Assembly: GCA_019694875.1 (NCBI GenBank)
Contig: JAIBBC010000003.1
Coordinates: 736,469 to 800,468, forward strand
Origin: Cyclobacteriaceae bacterium
GTDB lineage: Bacteria > Bacteroidota > Bacteroidia > Cytophagales > Cyclobacteriaceae
Reading direction: 5' to 3'
DNA: 64,000 bases
Below are positions 52,109 through 60,904 of the stretch, in pieces. The notes below the pieces were generated by a model. The model saw only the letters and a list, made by a program, of their open reading frames with translations. It searched no databases and had not been told where the DNA came from. The position numbers were made by a program, and so were the translations under genes. The first letter of the stretch is position 1, and each line of letters begins with the position of its first letter.

Positions 52109-53413
52109 ATGAGCATTTTCAGAATCAAAGGCGGCAATAAGTTAAAAGGTGAAATCATTCCGCAGGGCGCGAAGAACGAGGCGTTACAAATCATCAGCGC
52201 AGTATTGCTGACTGATCAGCCGATGACCATTCACAACATCCCTGACATCCGCGATGTAAACAAGCTGATCGAACTTGTTGGTGATTTAGGAGCAAAAGTT
52301 GAAAAGCTTGGAAAAGATTCTTACCGGTTTACAGCGGCAAAAGTCAATACAAAATTCCTCGAGAGCGATGAGTACCGTGCCAAAGCTGCCGCGCTCCGTG
52401 GATCGGTAATGTTGCTCGGACCCATTCTCGCCCGCTTCGGAAAAGCGAGTCTGCCAAAACCTGGCGGTGACAAGATTGGAAGAAGGCGACTGGACACGCA
52501 CTTCATCGGCTTTCAAAAACTTGGCGCAAAATTCAACTTCGATTCAAACAACCAATATTTTGAGATTGATGCCTCCAGGCTCGAGGGCACGTACATGTTG
52601 CTTGATGAAGCATCGGTTACCGGAACAGCGAACATTGTAATGGCCGCTGTGCTGGCTAAAGGCAAAACAACGATCTACAACGCAGCCTGTGAGCCATACT
52701 TACAGCAACTCTGCAGCATGCTCAACCGCATGGGTGCAAAAATCAGTGGCGTAGGTTCTAACCTGCTGACGATTGAGGGAGTTGAAAAACTTGGCGGAAC
52801 GGAACATACACTACTGCCCGACATGATCGAAATCGGAAGTTTCATCGGCCTGGCAGCCATGACGCAATCCGAGATCACGATCAAGAATTGTCGGATCGAC
52901 ATGCTGGGCATCATCCCGGAGATCTTCAGACGACTCGGAATTAAGATGGAATTCCGTGGAGATGATATTCACATTCCCGCACAGGAAAAATATGAGATTG
53001 AATCGTTCATTGATGGTTCAATCTTAACAATTGCTGATGCTCCGTGGCCGGGATTCACTCCGGATTTGATCAGCATTGTGCTGGTGGTAGCAACCCAGGC
53101 GAAAGGCTCAGTGCTCATACATCAAAAAATGTTTGAGAGCCGGTTGTTCTTTGTCGACAAGCTCATCGACATGGGTGCACAGATTATTCTTTGCGATCCT
53201 CACCGGGCAAACGTGATTGGTCTTGACCGCAAACAGGCATTACGCGGCATCAAGATGGCTTCCCCCGACATCCGCGCAGGCGTGGCCTTATTGATTGCTG
53301 CGTTGTCGGCTAATGGCGTGAGTGAAATTTCAAGCATCGATCAAATTGATCGCGGCTATCAGAACATTGATACGCGATTGAGGGCGTTAGGTGCTGATAT
53401 CGAACGCCTGTGA
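52109..53413 (+). CDS. murA: UDP-N-acetylglucosamine 1-carboxyvinyltransferase with Asp in the active-site loop
   Basis: First committed step of peptidoglycan synthesis, transferring enolpyruvate from PEP to UDP-GlcNAc. ATG 52109 (MSIFRIKGGNKLKGEI) is chosen because the 16 codons upstream are unlike the family. Conserved parts: PQGAKNEALQII (Lys22/Asn23), AALRGSV, TGTANIVMAA, GSILTIADAPWPGFTPDL and the closing RGYQNIDTRLRALGADI. The catalytic loop reads PGGDKIGRR, so residue 121 is Asp where E. coli has the fosfomycin-binding Cys115. 434 residues. The stop overlaps the next start (TGATG). Confidence 0.97.
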   Translation: MSIFRIKGGNKLKGEIIPQGAKNEALQIISAVLLTDQPMTIHNIPDIRDVNKLIELVGDLGAKVEKLGKDSYRFTAAKVNTKFLESDEYRAKAAALRGSVMLLGPILARFGKASLPKPGGDKIGRRRLDTHFIGFQKLGAKFNFDSNNQYFEIDASRLEGTYMLLDEASVTGTANIVMAAVLAKGKTTIYNAACEPYLQQLCSMLNRMGAKISGVGSNLLTIEGVEKLGGTEHTLLPDMIEIGSFIGLAAMTQSEITIKNCRIDMLGIIPEIFRRLGIKMEFRGDDIHIPAQEKYEIESFIDGSILTIADAPWPGFTPDLISIVLVVATQAKGSVLIHQKMFESRLFFVDKLIDMGAQIILCDPHRANVIGLDRKQALRGIKMASPDIRAGVALLIAALSANGVSEISSIDQIDRGYQNIDTRLRALGADIERL

Positions 53414-54639
53414 TGAAGAACCTGGTCATTCTTTTTGCATTAACACTTATATCTCGAAGTGCGTTTTCTCAGGCAGATTTTCGTCCTGGTTATGTAATTA
53501 ATTTAAATAAGGACACCGTTCAGGGTTTCATTTTCTACTCAGAGGGGAATCAGAAGTTCACGCGGTGTTATTTTAAAACCACCCTTCAGCAGCCGGAGGT
53601 TAAATATACCCCTGCCGATATCATGGGGTATCGACTTGAAGGAGATAGTTATTTTTCTGTACGATCAGTTAAAATGAATCTCGCGACAAAGGAGCAATTC
53701 TTTGCAGAAATCCTGGTTCAAGGCAGAGCAACATTATTCAAAATTCTTGATCGATTTTACCTGGAGGATAGTCAGCAAAATATCTTCCACCTGGAACAAA
53801 CTTCACGAGAGGTTGTGCAGGATAACAAAAGATTTTTAAGAACCGATCGTAAATATTTAGGGATTCTGAGTTGGAAATTTTCGGATTGTGAGAAGATGAA
53901 GCGACAAATTAATGACATTAAGCTTCATGAGCAGGAGCTTACCGTAGCCTTCGAAAAATATAATTCATGCTTTAGCCAGCAAACTACTTCCTTCAAAGAT
54001 CAAAAGCCCTGGACACGTCATGCTGTTGGCATAGCAAGTGGAGTCATGTTCACCACACTGGATATTGATGGTCTGGCGTCCTTCATTGACAGCGAACAGT
54101 TCAAGCATGACACTGGCATGTTGATTGGATTGCGTTACACACTTTCTTCACCGCGCATTTCTGAAAAAGTTAGTATGAATCTTGGCTTTACGTTTCAAAA
54201 AGTTAGTCATAAGTCAGATATGCGTACGTCCGGCACACGAGATGTTGTTTCGATGCAATACAATGCATTACGAATCCCCGTGTCAGTAGTTTATAATTTT
54301 TCCGGGCTAAACAGAAGGTTAACACCATTTTTAGAGGGAGGAATGGCCTTCCTGTTCTACCTTAATCTAAAAAGTTATTGGCAACGTGAACAGGTGATTA
54401 ATAATGCTTTTATAGTTAATCGAGTGGATAATTTTTTCTATTATCAGAAGAATAATGCTCGCGCATTTCTTGGCCTGGGGGCAACCTATAAATGGAATGA
54501 TCAATTTGATGTATCATTTAGAGGTCAATACTACTACGGCTCTTCACACATATTAGCGGGCGTTCCCCAAATGATAGAACAGAACATTACTGTAGAGGGA
54601 GCCATCTACTACAAGTTGGGAAATAAGAAGAACCGATAA
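53413..54639 (+). CDS. Predicted outer-membrane beta-barrel protein (408 aa), function unknown
   Basis: Signal peptide at residues 1-20 (ending RSAFSQ). Residues 21-170 form an N-terminal globular part (GYVINLNKDTVQGFIFYSEG, opening with a pattern common in Bacteroidota secreted proteins of unknown role). A short helix of charged residues follows, then from about 200 alternating amphipathic strands with Gly and aromatic ends (IGLRYTLSS, MNLGFTFQKVSH, LRIPVSVVYNFS, RAFLGLGATYKW) and C-terminal VEGAIYYKLG, as in small porin-like barrels. ATG 53413 overlaps the murA stop by one base. GC is lower than in the neighbours in the lines counted (27-42%). No named family assigned. Confidence 0.8.
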   Translation: MKNLVILFALTLISRSAFSQADFRPGYVINLNKDTVQGFIFYSEGNQKFTRCYFKTTLQQPEVKYTPADIMGYRLEGDSYFSVRSVKMNLATKEQFFAEILVQGRATLFKILDRFYLEDSQQNIFHLEQTSREVVQDNKRFLRTDRKYLGILSWKFSDCEKMKRQINDIKLHEQELTVAFEKYNSCFSQQTTSFKDQKPWTRHAVGIASGVMFTTLDIDGLASFIDSEQFKHDTGMLIGLRYTLSSPRISEKVSMNLGFTFQKVSHKSDMRTSGTRDVVSMQYNALRIPVSVVYNFSGLNRRLTPFLEGGMAFLFYLNLKSYWQREQVINNAFIVNRVDNFFYYQKNNARAFLGLGATYKWNDQFDVSFRGQYYYGSSHILAGVPQMIEQNITVEGAIYYKLGNKKNR

Positions 54640-55672: not shown

Positions 55673-55703
55673 CAAAAATGCGGAAGTTTTGTCGATTTTA
55701 CAA
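55673..55703 (-). promoter_or_regulatory. Promoter of the DUF4295 gene
   Basis: Minus strand TTG, 20-nt spacer, CATTTTTG (one mismatch to TAnnTTTG). Predicted start about 15 nt before the ATG. Confidence 0.5.
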
Positions 55704-55821
55704 CGGGAACCCGCGCTATTTCCCGATAAAGATTAACGGGAACCTCAAAACGCCCTAATACCCATCAAAAAAGCACTCCGAAAATCCCAAAATCCTTAAA
55801 TCCTGATCATATTGCGATGTT

Positions 55822-57522
55822 ATGGAGAAACCGACTTTACCGAAGGGAACACGCGATTTTGGGCCGGCTGTGATGGCGAAACGCCAGTTTATTCTGGATG
55901 CCATCCGGAGAGTGTTTCAAAAGTTCGGCTTTCAGCCTCTGGAAACTCCCGCGATGGAGAATCTCTCCACCCTCACAGGCAAATATGGTGAAGAAGGCGA
56001 TCAGCTGTTGTTTAAGATTCTGGACTCAGGTGATTTTTATAAGAAAATATTTAGTCCACTAACAAATCGAAGCATTGAGAATAAATTAAAAGACTTATTC
56101 AGCAGGGTTTCCCTGAGAATCGAAAAGGTTGCTGATTTGAAGAACTTAATAAATGATATTTTAAAAGAACTGGAATTTGAAGCGAAAGAGTATGATGATA
56201 GACAATCTTTAATAATAATCAAAGACTATGTAAAAGCGGATACCGAATTCGTACAACATGAAATTGTCAAGTTTTTAACATCAAGAGAGAAAACGGGTGA
56301 CTCTAAAAAGGATGTTCAAAGCCTGCTTCTCCAAATTCCTAATCTTGTAGAGACAATTTTCTATAATTTAAATGGTTTTGAAACTCAAAGATTAAAACCA
56401 AGAAGTAGTAAACAACTGCAAGCGTATATCTCCGAAAAAGGACTTCGCTACGACCTCACCGTACCCTTTGCGCGCTACGTGGTGATGAACAAACATGACA
56501 TCCCAACGCCATTCAAACGGTACCAGATCCAGCCTGTATGGCGTGCCGACCGACCTCAGAAAGGTCGCTACCGTGAATTCTACCAGTGCGATGCGGACGT
56601 TGTGGGAACCGATTCATTAACCTGTGAAGCCGAGATCATACTGATGATCCGTGAAGTGTTCCAATCACTGAAGATTGAAGATTACACAATCAAGATTAAT
56701 CACCGCGGTGTACTAACCGGTTTGGCTGAGTTGGCGGGTGCTAAAGAAAATCAAACCTCGCTGTTTGTGGCGATTGATAAGCTTGATAAGATCGGTGAAG
56801 AAAAAGTAAAAGAAGAGTTGCTCGGCAAAGGATTCACGGAAAAGAGTATCAAAACCGTTTTCGACATCCTGAACTTCCAGGGAACAACTTCGCAAAAGGT
56901 AGTTTTCCTCAACGATAAGTTTACAAAATCGGAAGCTGGCGATCGCGGGGTAAGTCAGCTGAGCGCTGTGCTGCGTTTGCTACGCGACTATAACAGCGAT
57001 GACAAGCACGTGGAGTTTGACATTGCATTGGCCAGGGGCCTGAGTTATTATACCGGTTGCATCTTTGAGGTAAAAATTAATAATGTTTCTATCGGCAGCG
57101 TAAGCGGTGGTGGACGGTATGATAATCTGACGGCCGCTTTTGGGGATAAAGAAAATCTCTCGGGCGTTGGTTTTTCGTTTGGAGTCGACAGACTTTACGA
57201 TGCAATGGAGGAACTCAATCTCTTCCCAAAAGAAGCGCAGGCCTCCACCAAAATTCTGATCTGTCATTTCGATGAAGAAACACAACGCTTCGGATTGAAA
57301 GAGTTGAGCGCCTTACGCGCAGCTGGCATCGCGGCCGAAGTCTACCCCGATCAGGCCAAAATGAAGAAGCAACTCGATTACGCAAATAAAAAAATGATTC
57401 CGTATGCGATCGTGATCGGGTCAGAAGAAACGAAAAACGGTTTCCTGACTTTCAAGAATATGGAAACGGGCGACCAGGAAAAACTTACTGTTCAGCAGAT
57501 CATTCAGAAACTGAAAGCTTAA
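55822..57522 (+). CDS. hisS: Histidyl-tRNA synthetase with an extra inserted domain
   Basis: Class II synthetase charging tRNA-His. Motif 1 region LPKGTRDFGP...PLETPAMENLSTL; motif 2 YQIQPVWRADRPQKGRYREFYQCDADVVG; histidine-binding loops LARGLSYYTGCIFE and SGGGRYDNL; motif 3 GVGFSFGVDRLYDAM; C-terminal anticodon domain from about 470. Total 566 residues against about 455 usual in the phylum. The excess lies between GDQLLFKILDSGDF and LQAYISEKGLRYDLTVPFARYV, where ordinary enzymes have only about 20 residues. The flanks are intact and in frame, so the enzyme is probably active. Stop and hutH start share a base (TAATG). Confidence 0.95.
   Translation: MEKPTLPKGTRDFGPAVMAKRQFILDAIRRVFQKFGFQPLETPAMENLSTLTGKYGEEGDQLLFKILDSGDFYKKIFSPLTNRSIENKLKDLFSRVSLRIEKVADLKNLINDILKELEFEAKEYDDRQSLIIIKDYVKADTEFVQHEIVKFLTSREKTGDSKKDVQSLLLQIPNLVETIFYNLNGFETQRLKPRSSKQLQAYISEKGLRYDLTVPFARYVVMNKHDIPTPFKRYQIQPVWRADRPQKGRYREFYQCDADVVGTDSLTCEAEIILMIREVFQSLKIEDYTIKINHRGVLTGLAELAGAKENQTSLFVAIDKLDKIGEEKVKEELLGKGFTEKSIKTVFDILNFQGTTSQKVVFLNDKFTKSEAGDRGVSQLSAVLRLLRDYNSDDKHVEFDIALARGLSYYTGCIFEVKINNVSIGSVSGGGRYDNLTAAFGDKENLSGVGFSFGVDRLYDAMEELNLFPKEAQASTKILICHFDEETQRFGLKELSALRAAGIAAEVYPDQAKMKKQLDYANKKMIPYAIVIGSEETKNGFLTFKNMETGDQEKLTVQQIIQKLKA
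56038..56406 (+). other. AT-rich in-frame insertion within hisS (about residues 73-195)
   Basis: By direct count the 360 bases 56041-56400 contain 110 G or C (31%), while 60-base blocks on either side (55921-55980 and 56461-56520) have 57% and 52%. The encoded segment is rich in Lys, Glu, Leu and Ile, predicted mostly helical (IENKLKDLFSRVSLRIEK; LKNLINDILKELEFEAKEY), with no domain I recognise. No intein splice motifs, no stop codon, and no clear terminal repeats or target duplication are seen. Confidence 0.85.
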
Positions 57523-59012
57523 TGACAACGCATTTTATTTCAGAGAAAATGCTGACGTTGAAAGATTTGTCAGCGATTCTTCATGATTCAATTAAGCTTG
57601 AACTTTCCGACAGCGCTAAAGAAAAAATTCAACGGTGCCGCAGCTACCTGGACGATAAGGCAAAGCATGCAACACAGCCAATCTATGGAATCAACACCGG
57701 CTTTGGCTCGTTGTACAATAAACACATATCGCCAAATGATCTTGAGAAGTTGCAGGAAAATCTGGTAAAGTCGCATGCCTGCGGAACGGGTCCCGAAATC
57801 CCTGACGAAATAGTGCGCCTGATGCTGTTTTTAAAAGTACAATCATTAGCGTACGGATATTCAGGCGTTCAGGTTGAAACTGTTCAACGCCTGACGGACT
57901 ATTTCAATAACAATGTCTTCCCGGTTGTATTCGAAATGGGATCGCTTGGAGCTTCCGGTGATCTTGCACCGCTTGCCCATCTTTCACTTCCACTGATTGG
58001 ATTAGGCGAAGTAAGAATCGACAATCAAATAACAACGGGTTCGCAGGTAAACAAGAAGTACGGTTGGGAGACCATTCACCTTAAATCGAAAGAAGGTCTT
58101 GCGTTACTGAATGGCACACAGTTCATGAATGCGTACGCAGTCTGGTGTATGGTACATGCCCACCGCATTCTTAAACTGGCGAACATGATCGGGGCGCTTT
58201 CGCTGGACGCATTTGATGGTCGTATAGAGCCCTTTCTGAAATACGTTCATTTGATCAGGCCGCAAAAAGGTCAGGTAGCGGTGGCGCAGGAAATAGAAAA
58301 TTTGCTTGCCGGAAGCCAGCTGATCAAGCAGAATAAAAAACACGTTCAGGACCCGTATTCCTTCCGGTGTATCCCGCAAGTACACGGTGCAAGCTTAGAT
58401 GCAATTGAACATGTAACCCAGGTTGTTCTCACGGAAGTGAACAGCGTTACCGACAATCCGAATGTTTTCCCGGAGGATGATTTGATTATCTCTGGAGGAA
58501 ACTTCCACGGCCAACCGCTTGCTTTGTCACTCGACTTCCTGTCGATAGCTCTTGCCGAACTTGGCAACATCTCGGAAAGAAGAACATATCAACTAATCAG
58601 CGGCTCACGCGACCTCCCGAATTACCTCGTGGCCAATCCGGGCATTAACTCGGGCATGATGATCCCGCAATACACTGCCGCTTCGATGGTAAGTCAGAAT
58701 AAACAGCTTTGCACGCCTGCATCTGTGGATTCGATCGTATCCTCCAATGGCCAGGAAGATCACGTAAGTATGGGCTCCAATGCAGCTACCAAGGCTTACC
58801 GGGTAGTGAACAATGTGTATAGTATTCTGGCAATTGAACTGCTGACCGCAACCCAGGCAATGGCATTCCGGAAGCCTTTAAAAACTTCGCCTGCGCTGGA
58901 AAAACTTGTGAATACTTTCCGGGAACATGTTCCGTTTATAGAAGAAGATCGCGTGCTTCACGATGATATTAAAAAAGCAGAGAAATTTATCCGCGAATTT
59001 GCGTTAGCATGA
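57522..59012 (+). CDS. hutH: Histidine ammonia-lyase (MIO enzyme)
   Basis: Deaminates histidine to urocanate. The MIO cofactor forms from Ala144-Ser145-Gly146 in GSLGASGDLAPLAHL. Catalytic Tyr55 lies in PIYGINTGFG. The substrate-selectivity pair reads Ser-His (LVKSHACGTG, residues 84-85), as in histidine rather than tyrosine or phenylalanine lyases, and NGQEDHVSMG carries the conserved Glu. 496 residues. hutU, hutI and hutG are not in the window. It starts on the last base of the hisS stop and overlaps the T9SS cargo by 4 nt, an unusual operon joining charging, breakdown and secretion. Confidence 0.9.
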   Translation: MTTHFISEKMLTLKDLSAILHDSIKLELSDSAKEKIQRCRSYLDDKAKHATQPIYGINTGFGSLYNKHISPNDLEKLQENLVKSHACGTGPEIPDEIVRLMLFLKVQSLAYGYSGVQVETVQRLTDYFNNNVFPVVFEMGSLGASGDLAPLAHLSLPLIGLGEVRIDNQITTGSQVNKKYGWETIHLKSKEGLALLNGTQFMNAYAVWCMVHAHRILKLANMIGALSLDAFDGRIEPFLKYVHLIRPQKGQVAVAQEIENLLAGSQLIKQNKKHVQDPYSFRCIPQVHGASLDAIEHVTQVVLTEVNSVTDNPNVFPEDDLIISGGNFHGQPLALSLDFLSIALAELGNISERRTYQLISGSRDLPNYLVANPGINSGMMIPQYTAASMVSQNKQLCTPASVDSIVSSNGQEDHVSMGSNAATKAYRVVNNVYSILAIELLTATQAMAFRKPLKTSPALEKLVNTFREHVPFIEEDRVLHDDIKKAEKFIREFALA

Positions 59013-60904
59013 ATGTCAGGCACATTCTTTTTATAATTCTTCTCATCCCGGTTGTCGCGGCAGCACAATACACAAGCGATGCCGGACGATTCCAGGTTAA
59101 TGAGAGACGCGGATGTGCCCCCTTTACACTGACGATCACAAACACCGATCTGCTTACACCCTGCAATAATAACTGTTTGATCTCGTGGGGAGATGGGACA
59201 CCCAATAACCAGGCGGACGGCATATTTACTCATACCTACACTACTGCGGGGACTTTCACACTCAGTGTAAACTACGATGGCGGCCGGGGTCCTGATCAGA
59301 TGCAGATAACGGTATATCCAAATGTTCAACCGGTGTTTGAAATTTACCGGTGCAGCGGCAATGAAATTCAGGTAAAAGTTACCGACACGAACTACGATTC
59401 CTATATCATCAATTACAACGATGCTTCCCCGGAAGTTACCGTTCCGAAGGGATCACTCGCGGTCAATCACACCTTTGCCTCTTCCGGAAATAAAACTGTT
59501 TCCGTTCGCGGCATTAACAATGCTTCGGCAGACAATTGTACGCCAGCTGCAAACAAGGTTGTCGTAGTTTCAGCTGCAGCACCGCCTGCGCCAACGATCG
59601 ATCAACTGGTAATTACCAGCAGCACCGTCATTGATCTGCAATTCACAACGCAGCAAAACGTGCTTTACCGGCTGGAGATTGGTGTAAACGGTGGAGCATT
59701 TGTTAACCTCGGAAACCTGATTGACGTAAGCACCGCAACGGTTCCTAACCTGGATACCGATAATAACTTTTATTGCTTCCGCCTGGGTACGGTCGATCCC
59801 TGTAATGGAGGCGTAAACTACTCCCCGACTATTTGCAGTGCAGACCTGGCCGCAACCGCACAAAACAATGCCAACGATTTAACCTGGACGACCTCAGCAA
59901 CAGGTGTGATAAATTTTACAATCCAGCGCGATGGTGTTGTCCTGACGACTGTCACGGGCACAACTTTTACAGACACCGATGTGATTTGCGGTACGCAATA
60001 CTGCTATCAAATCATATCCAACTATGCGGGTAGTGCGGAAAGTTTTTCAACTGTGAGATGCGTAACGGCTATTTCCACAGATGTGCCTGCCGCGATTGCA
60101 GATGTAAGCAGTGTAGTTAACGGTGGAAGTGTTGAACTGACGTGGGAACCTGATGCCGTGTTCACGGCAGATTCATATTCCATTTTTCGAAGAACCAACG
60201 GAGGCTTGTTCAAACGATTACAAGCCGGAGTTACTTTTCCGTCTTTCACGGATGACAATTATTTGATCTCCGATCAAGCGTGCTATCGCGTTGATTACAT
60301 CAACAGCTGCGGAAACACAAGCGATCCGGGCATACAAGCGTGCCCGATCATTCTGAGTTACATTACCAACAGTGATAACCAGATCATTTTGAACTGGACA
60401 GCTTACAACGGCTGGACAGGGGGAGTTGATCATTACGAGATCGACAAGTACGATTTGAATCGCAGTTCGCTCGGCACAATTACGCTCGGAAACGTTACCA
60501 CGTATTCCGATCCGGATCTGGGTGACCAGGGATATTTTTATGTGGTGCGTGCCATACCTAACACCGCCACAACAGGTGAATCGGTGTCGAACGAAATCAA
60601 GGCACTTCGGAAGCTGATATTTGCGTATCCGAAAGCCTTCACACCCGACAAACAGGGTCCTCAGGAAAATGAGACTTTTAAAGTGTTTGTTACGGAAGAA
60701 TTCATCGACACGTTTGAAATGAAAATATTCAATCGCTGGGGCGAAATGATTTTTTCCACCACCGATTTACTCAAAGGCTGGGATGGAAAATTCAACGGTC
60801 AGCCACAACCGGAAGGAACCTATACGTTTACCGCAACCCTTCGTGATAAAACGGGCAGAATTTTTAAGCGCGATGGCTCTGTAATGTTACTTCGTAAAAA
60901 GTAA
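59009..60904 (+). CDS. Type IX secretion cargo with PKD and CHU_C (type B) domain, 631 aa
   Basis: Signal peptide residues 1-19 (ending VVAAAQ). PKD-like domain at about 30-110 (GCAPFTLTITNTDL, ISWGDGTPNN, HTYTTAGTFTLSV). Then beta-sandwich or fibronectin-III-like repeats with CYRVDYIN, YCYQIIS and NFYCFRLG segments. From about 535 the sorting domain: YPKAFTPDKQGPQENE, MKIFNRWGEMIFS, GWDGKFNGQPQPEGTYTFTA, ending VMLLRKK. Secreted or surface-bound; adhesion or gliding role inferred. ATG overlaps the hutH stop by 4 nt. Confidence 0.9.
   Translation: MNVRHILFIILLIPVVAAAQYTSDAGRFQVNERRGCAPFTLTITNTDLLTPCNNNCLISWGDGTPNNQADGIFTHTYTTAGTFTLSVNYDGGRGPDQMQITVYPNVQPVFEIYRCSGNEIQVKVTDTNYDSYIINYNDASPEVTVPKGSLAVNHTFASSGNKTVSVRGINNASADNCTPAANKVVVVSAAAPPAPTIDQLVITSSTVIDLQFTTQQNVLYRLEIGVNGGAFVNLGNLIDVSTATVPNLDTDNNFYCFRLGTVDPCNGGVNYSPTICSADLAATAQNNANDLTWTTSATGVINFTIQRDGVVLTTVTGTTFTDTDVICGTQYCYQIISNYAGSAESFSTVRCVTAISTDVPAAIADVSSVVNGGSVELTWEPDAVFTADSYSIFRRTNGGLFKRLQAGVTFPSFTDDNYLISDQACYRVDYINSCGNTSDPGIQACPIILSYITNSDNQIILNWTAYNGWTGGVDHYEIDKYDLNRSSLGTITLGNVTTYSDPDLGDQGYFYVVRAIPNTATTGESVSNEIKALRKLIFAYPKAFTPDKQGPQENETFKVFVTEEFIDTFEMKIFNRWGEMIFSTTDLLKGWDGKFNGQPQPEGTYTFTATLRDKTGRIFKRDGSVMLLRKK

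Follow-up and report, generated by a model that had tools for sequence, protein, structure and literature searches.

A hypervariable, exchangeable loop cassette in histidyl-tRNA synthetases of two Bacteroidota families, possibly a shield against an antagonist

The histidyl-tRNA synthetase (HisRS) gene, hisS, of a Cyclobacteriaceae bacterium carries a long segment in a loop of its catalytic domain, and long alleles are found in a patchy pattern at this same loop in the Cyclobacteriaceae and the Flavobacteriaceae. In these two Bacteroidota families the segment is a recurrent, hypervariable and exchangeable cassette, which an initial annotation of this DNA had not anticipated. The best reading of the data is that the cassette is exchanged, functional and fast-diverging. 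We tentatively propose, as a reading that falls slightly on the low side of even, that Bacteroidota HisRS has a hypervariable cassette in the hairpin joining motifs 1 and 2, of which this segment represents a single allele, and that the cassette would shield the enzyme against an antagonist. The gene was analysed in a 64,000-nucleotide stretch of contig JAIBBC010000003.1 (the window), and its features are collected in Table 1.

The assignment of the protein as HisRS follows from its Pfam matches to the catalytic (PF13393, E 9e-39) and anticodon-binding (PF03129, E 8.6e-15) domains, and from its closest solved structure, 6nhi (E 8.2e-131), which is a HisRS without the insert. The two closest relatives have proteins of 456 residues, compared with 566 in the window, and alignment with them places the entire 110-residue excess between QLLFKI(L)(N/D)SGDF and ISEKGLRYDLT, which bears out the initial claim of about 110 extra residues, all between motifs 1 and 2. 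In class II enzymes this loop comes after motif 1, and the next strand runs into the amino-acid site; the cassette is probably tolerated because its exit from the loop leaves motifs 1 to 3 undisturbed. The region RADRPQKGRYREFYQCD, which we take to be motif 2 from general knowledge of class II synthetases, is intact in the alignment, in line with the flanking motifs having been described as intact. The reading frame through the insert is unbroken, and a search of the genome found hisS at one place. Judging from the conserved motifs and the single genomic place, the enzyme most likely charges tRNA-His.

Table 1 Features of hisS and its loop cassette in the window
Feature	Position	Strand	Basis
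hisS, histidyl-tRNA synthetase, 566 aa, long allele	55822..57522	+	ORF; Pfam PF13393 and PF03129; best solved relative 6nhi
Left junction QLLFKILDSGDF, conserved edge of exchanged segment	56002..56037	+	Alignment with L002/L003 and A1
Hypervariable cassette, residues 73-195	56038..56406	+	Loop of 147 residues here, 37 in sister genomes
Cassette helix 1 (residues 69-97, break at 82), predicted	56026..56112	+	AlphaFold2, block pLDDT 55-68
Cassette helix 2 (residues 104-122), predicted	56131..56187	+	AlphaFold2, block pLDDT 54-68
Cassette helix 3 (residues 127-153), predicted	56200..56280	+	AlphaFold2, block pLDDT 54-69
Cassette helices 4 and 5 (residues 162-170, 172-190), predicted	56305..56391	+	AlphaFold2, block pLDDT 57-71
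Right junction ISEKGLRYDLT, conserved edge	56428..56460	+	Alignments; L089/L091 exchange border
Motif 2 region RADRPQKGRYREFYQCD, intact	56542..56592	+	Alignment

The AlphaFold2 model of the window insert is all-helical with block pLDDT values of 52-71, and that of the insert of another long locus, L049, is also all-helical, with pLDDT 59-92 and 9 of 12 ten-residue blocks at 79 or above. Judged by secondary structure, the predicted layouts of these two dissimilar inserts look alike, both showing four long helices that follow one another in much the same way. In both models pLDDT falls below 50 at the left edge and at the root of the loop (45-70 in the window's, 43-71 in that of L049), so that where the cassette sits on the enzyme is not reliably predicted. 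Fold searches with the whole L049 model placed HisRS and other synthetases on top among the best 50 matches of each search.

Within the genus of the window, the long allele is present in 3 of the 17 genomes (the window's own, G001 and G016). The initial annotation had considered that all close relatives might carry the segment, as an old lineage trait; this is not so, since in the two closest relatives, G004 and G005, the loop has its ordinary 37 residues. The identity of the window HisRS with those of G004 and G005 is 95-96% from motif 2 on and 90-93% ahead of the loop, and at the DNA level the figures are 88% and 85%, respectively, for the 1.4 kb or so that precede the insert, and 81% and 79% for the 3-4 kb that follow it. 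The insert was apparently gained, or retained, by one of three close lineages, and a recent gain seems favoured because GC3 is 0.27 in the insert vs 0.53 in the core. As for the horizontal acquisition proposed initially, movement is seen in relatives (L089/L091, below), but no donor was found for the window's own copy, which we infer to be a recombination-exchanged cassette as well. When 14-kb stretches were compared with the short-allele sisters, the roughly 6 kb to either side of hisS contained no additional gene.

The neighbourhood shows some variation of its own. The slot upstream of hisS between murA-like and exoA-like genes varies among relatives: the window has an AT-richer ORF of 409 aa at 53410-54636 (GC3 0.396), with 50% identity to an ORF of G005 and no match in the G004 stretch, and G005 carries an additional ORF of 837 aa in this slot. 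Two genes downstream of hisS, a 631-aa ORF (59009-60901) has 45-88% identity in five genomes, its neighbours being better conserved. Among L082-L098, a 32-row tree, from which L128 was left out, separates the hisS core of G000, G004 and G005 from the rest of the genus with weak support (73/98), perhaps by an older whole-gene replacement. The long label requires 9 changes on this tree, 7 of them forced, with 9.2 for shuffled labels. Another allele type is seen in L093 (G002), whose hisS has an unusual loop of 39 residues with altered edges (KLIYKIRSNKSLRARL...SELG).

The movement of the cassette without the rest of the gene is well shown by two loci of this genus, L089 (G001) and L091 (G016). 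Their common insert has diverged by dN 0.034 and dS 0.12, vs dN 0.197 and dS 1.68 for their cores. The identity between them climbs near nucleotide 170 of hisS and drops near 700, giving sharp borders near the two conserved edges, of which one falls close to the position matching the left junction of the window. L091 is the sister of the short-allele locus L090 (G009), with support of 100/98, and L089 groups with the short-allele locus L085 (G006), with 95/75. This pair was taken as decisive for exchange, and L063/L169, with a weaker contrast (insert dS 0.62 vs core 1.55), as supportive. A wider codon-identity test flagged many pairs and was set aside, as it is confounded by AT-biased codons and few sites. 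Specially conserved DNA edges acting as recombination anchors were not supported, with the left edge ranking 32 of 340 windows (above average) and the right edge 330 of 361 (below).

Repeated changes of allele are also found in the genus of Winogradskyella eximia, for which 68 genomes gave 65 matches in 64 of them, and 64 loci were analysed after leaving out a cut-off match in G834. These loci comprise 15 long loops, 46 of 37 residues and three intermediate loops of 50-55 residues. One genome, G831, gives one short and one long locus and may be a mixed bin. On the core tree, which is weakly resolved (19 of the 61 inner branches starred as well supported, 27 of 61 open), 11 long/short changes are needed (11-13 in bootstraps), at least 8 of them forced by starred branches, and a single long clade is rejected (p-AU 2.7e-5). 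Shuffled labels require 13.7 changes on average, so that the long alleles are slightly clustered; with the insert clusters described below as states, the number of changes is 17. The loci L168/L169 and L185/L195 are well-supported sister pairs with dissimilar inserts, between flanks that are 92-96% identical in nucleotides. One type of 55-residue loop occurs in L176 and L184, which lie in two separate clades of this genus, and the intermediate alleles may therefore move too.

The wider occurrence of long alleles was estimated from several samples. Genome contigs were scanned for HisRS, and the best 80 of the 267 loci include 26 long ones, a proportion that overstates long alleles since the query itself contained the insert. 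In the family, 390 genomes were sampled and 379 gave a match; at least 12 of them have frames of 552 aa or more, whose inserts were read. In a phylum sample of 158 genomes, frames above 570 aa occur in 3 of the 39 genomes of the window's class, which are the window's own and, counted by frame length alone, G460 and G520; a few frames above 500 aa lie beyond this class (e.g., G541 and G419), again by frame length alone. The inserts that were read all occupy the same loop, which was delimited by its conserved edges, so that genes with altered edges may be missed. Pairwise search sorts the 44 distinct inserts into 25 clusters, and iteration with profiles reduces these to 23, with one cluster of 11 members, one of 8, four pairs and 17 singles, including the window insert. 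No similarity is detectable between the 23 clusters beyond weak E values of about 0.002-0.006, because of which all the inserts could possibly be one very diverged fold.

The inserts have dN/dS values of 0.28 (L089/L091) and 0.22 (L063/L169), which suggests purifying selection on them in these two usable pairs; most of the remaining ones are near synonymous saturation. There is no sign of positive selection on point changes, with dN/dS below 1 in both usable pairs. In alignments of 8 and 9 members from the two largest clusters, the insert ends are more conserved than the middles (0.40/0.28/0.33 and 0.38/0.23/0.32). Outside the loop, hisS keeps a length of 418-424 aa in 63 of the 64 loci of the Winogradskyella genus. 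In the same 68 genomes, SerRS frames are 424-463 aa in 67 and GlyRS frames 521-538 aa in 66, with a single GlyRS frame of 430 aa in G830, where the match lies close to the start of a contig, and with no GlyRS match over the cut-off in one further genome; these two enzymes were compared by open-frame length, a measure by which short-allele HisRS frames reach 529 aa via upstream extension. Since the SerRS and GlyRS frames and the rest of hisS keep their length, large length changes are peculiar to this HisRS loop among the three class II enzymes compared.

The insert contains 112 G+C in 369 nucleotides, or 30.4%, close to the 31% (110 of 360) counted initially. Blocks of 120 bases fully within it have 28-35% GC and the blocks immediately flanking it 50-54%, so the contrast originally noted with adjacent DNA stands; against the whole gene it is smaller (core 47% overall), because hisS has just 42-44% GC farther along (56600-56960). 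Among 2735 windows of 115 codons across 45 ORFs, the lowest GC3 (0.278) is that of this insert, and the next ORF has 0.296. The insert GC is below the core GC in all 34 long rows compared (30 distinct) and follows it (r 0.80, n = 30). Four more long loci fell outside the script's pattern; the comparison left out L040, L042, L058, L062, L071, L095 and L131 by the pattern, and L010 and L130, which have intact frames and short loops, by the start rule. Short ordinary loops are AT-richer than the core too, in 73 of 81 rows. As the low GC is class-wide, tracks that of the core and is shared by short loops, a foreign origin is unproven by composition alone.

None of the 44 inserts belongs convincingly to a known family in Pfam, PADLOC or PHROGs, and the initial picture, in which a helical domain outside the recognised families interrupts a catalytic-domain loop in frame, is supported, also when the window insert is searched alone with profile tools, as had been suggested. 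The inserts matched 23 Pfam families and 10 PADLOC families, with one member each, and 28 PHROGs families, one of which, among the 25 listed, has two members. The best PADLOC match of the 44 inserts, to AbiEi (E 0.0018), was taken as chance, and the window insert has no PADLOC match, so that a known anti-phage defence protein was rejected on this library. In PHROGs, the best match of the 44 is that of the window insert to phrog_11787, a phage DNA methyltransferase (E 0.00075), which is probably chance too, given the number of inserts scanned. Viral contigs contain no relative of the insert, and 18 phage records have HisRS matches, all below 60% identity and known by the match alone, so that some may carry inserts. 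In addition, hisS-like genes are found on 77 plasmid records, which include Paraclostridium, Planococcus, Lysinibacillus and some Bacteroidales.

A selfish element of intein, intron or transposon type, inserted in frame, would agree with an AT-rich segment that has moved horizontally in relatives, but we consider it very improbable. The window insert is present at one place in its own genome and, in 395 genomes of the phylum, only six weak matches lie outside hisS (E 0.0007-0.0076). Judging from locus layout and translations, L140 and L144 share a hit region, a helical part of an AddB-like protein, whereas L141 is hit in an RlmN-like protein; all six were judged to be chance rather than relatives, which for the AddB-like pair is a matter of judgement. 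The proposed search for the same segment in other proteins or at other sites thus gave no convincing copy outside hisS. There are no direct repeats in 55950-56500, and of two weak inverted pairs around the insert one, of 11 nt, links both edges; a transposable or palindromic element was discarded on the single genomic place and the lack of direct repeats. The region 55700-57600 has no Rfam match up to E 1, and hence no recognised catalytic RNA structure of a self-splicing intron, and the right edge (QAYISEKG) lacks the His-Asn followed by Cys, Ser or Thr of an intein, with no intein family in the Pfam scan. The clusters also lack a detectable common sequence, and the exchange borders fall within flanking hisS, as expected from homologous recombination. 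The single tolerated selfish insertion that was once an option is unlikely because the clusters show no detectable similarity in sequence, no convincing copy was found outside hisS and two recent pairs look purifying.

Three other explanations deserve weighing. The cassette may be tolerated cargo, in a loop that takes many foldable inserts which frequent recombination at hisS moves almost without cost or benefit to the host. In its favour, the insertion point is a loop, most alleles are short, the short loops themselves vary, no partner was found and the separate core of G000, G004 and G005 hints at further replacements at hisS. Against it stand the purifying-looking dN/dS values and the frequent switching of alleles within a genus whose SerRS and GlyRS, and whose hisS outside the loop, hold their lengths, and useless folded helices making up about a fifth of a protein are hard to explain; we regard this explanation as unlikely, yet a serious candidate. 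Modification of the target against a small-molecule inhibitor of HisRS, with bulky inserts changing access to the active site, appears improbable. The partial mosaic replacement of an essential target resembles mosaic resistance alleles such as penA of Neisseria, and the hisS-like genes on plasmids would fit; resistance of this kind usually converges on few changes, however, and a large set of unlike folded inserts is more than it requires. The literature searched revealed no HisRS inhibitor or resistance allele for Bacteroidota, which is weak evidence, some of the results having no bearing on HisRS. Distinctly unlikely, in our view, is an accessory function, close to the regulation of charging or binding of a partner considered initially, in which a sensor, regulatory or partner-binding domain alters charging upon a signal, perhaps as an immune guard that detects phage and halts translation. 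It is favoured by the similar predicted helical layout of two dissimilar inserts, the purifying signature in two recent pairs, the location within the catalytic domain and a precedent from plants, whose AsnRS has a domain between motifs 1 and 2 (PMC7564348, accessible part). A conserved role predicts a conserved sequence, yet 44 inserts form 23 clusters; moreover, close relatives survive without an insert, and no effector gene is linked to hisS in the 14-kb stretches compared.

In related genomes, cassettes pass from one species to another as a unit bounded by two conserved edges, without the remainder of hisS. In the shielding explanation that we prefer, an altered loop would protect HisRS from an antagonist that recognises the loop surface, which would most likely be a protein made by a phage or a competitor, and rare loop alleles would gain an advantage, by which cassettes and alternative short loops would stay diverse. 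The cassette would then be an exchangeable shielding on an essential target. Selection for difference at the loop surface fits the data because of the many dissimilar modules, the repeated allele changes within a genus and the constrained recent modules, and a loop domain that is patchy, variable and mobile is a pattern more typical of attacked proteins than of housekeeping enzymes. It counts against shielding that long alleles are in the minority and slightly clustered on the weakly resolved Winogradskyella tree, and that the dN/dS values give no sign of positive selection on point changes. We infer the antagonist; none was found in hisS neighbourhoods, in defence and phage libraries, or among HipA and VipB. 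HipA shows no link, as it passes the cut-off in 3 of the 15 genomes with a long allele vs 9 of the 53 others, and VipB has no match in 68 genomes, with a control positive in E. coli only, so that a Bacteroidota type may be missed. The more specific proposal, that the motif 1-2 loop of HisRS is attacked by proteins of a so far undescribed class, from phages or competitors, and that hosts trade folded shield domains by homologous recombination, is doubtful, though not far-fetched.

Lineage-specific domains inside the class II catalytic domain include insertion 1 of human GlyRS, which is stable in its lineage, and the editing domain of ProRS, which lies at a different position from the hisS insert. 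In penA of Neisseria and in the target-recognition domains of hsdS, an inner gene segment is replaced by homologous recombination between conserved edges. The exchange in hisS is alike in this respect, but the selective agent of penA and hsdS is known, whereas hisS encodes an essential synthetase and its agent is only proposed. No hypervariable or exchanged HisRS domain in Bacteroidota was found in the open-access literature searched, subscription papers being mostly outside it. Of the published concepts that we found, segmentally variable genes come closest (Zheng, Roberts and Kasif 2004, PMC387263). They are defined in the accessible part of that paper by conserved genes, some of them housekeeping, with a strongly variable inner segment; ProRS is discussed there, as is an insert in GyrB, some 160 residues long, and recognition of substrates or other molecules is suggested. 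With its conserved flanks and variable inner segment in a well conserved gene, hisS is of this kind, but the variation described in that part of the paper is between lineages, whereas in hisS even sister species gain, lose and swap the segment, which travels by itself. The editing insertion domain of bacterial ProRS is, like the hisS insert, lineage-specific within the class II catalytic domain (PMC387263, same part). Unlike the cassette, it is stable in its lineages and has an editing function. The WHEP domain that plant cytosolic AsnRS carries between its motifs 1 and 2 differs from the cassette in that, as far as the accessible part of PMC7564348 describes it, it is of a known family, conserved among plants and not exchanged.

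Synthetases are expected to change slowly, and the repeated swap of about a fifth of an essential enzyme, whose gene was found once in the window's genome, points to strong local selection or to unusual tolerance. The cassettes also offer natural examples of many dissimilar folds accepted at a single site of an enzyme. If an antagonist exists, it would be a new weapon against HisRS, and if the loop is indeed a battleground, an essential enzyme of translation would be polymorphic in these bacteria in the manner of a surface antigen.
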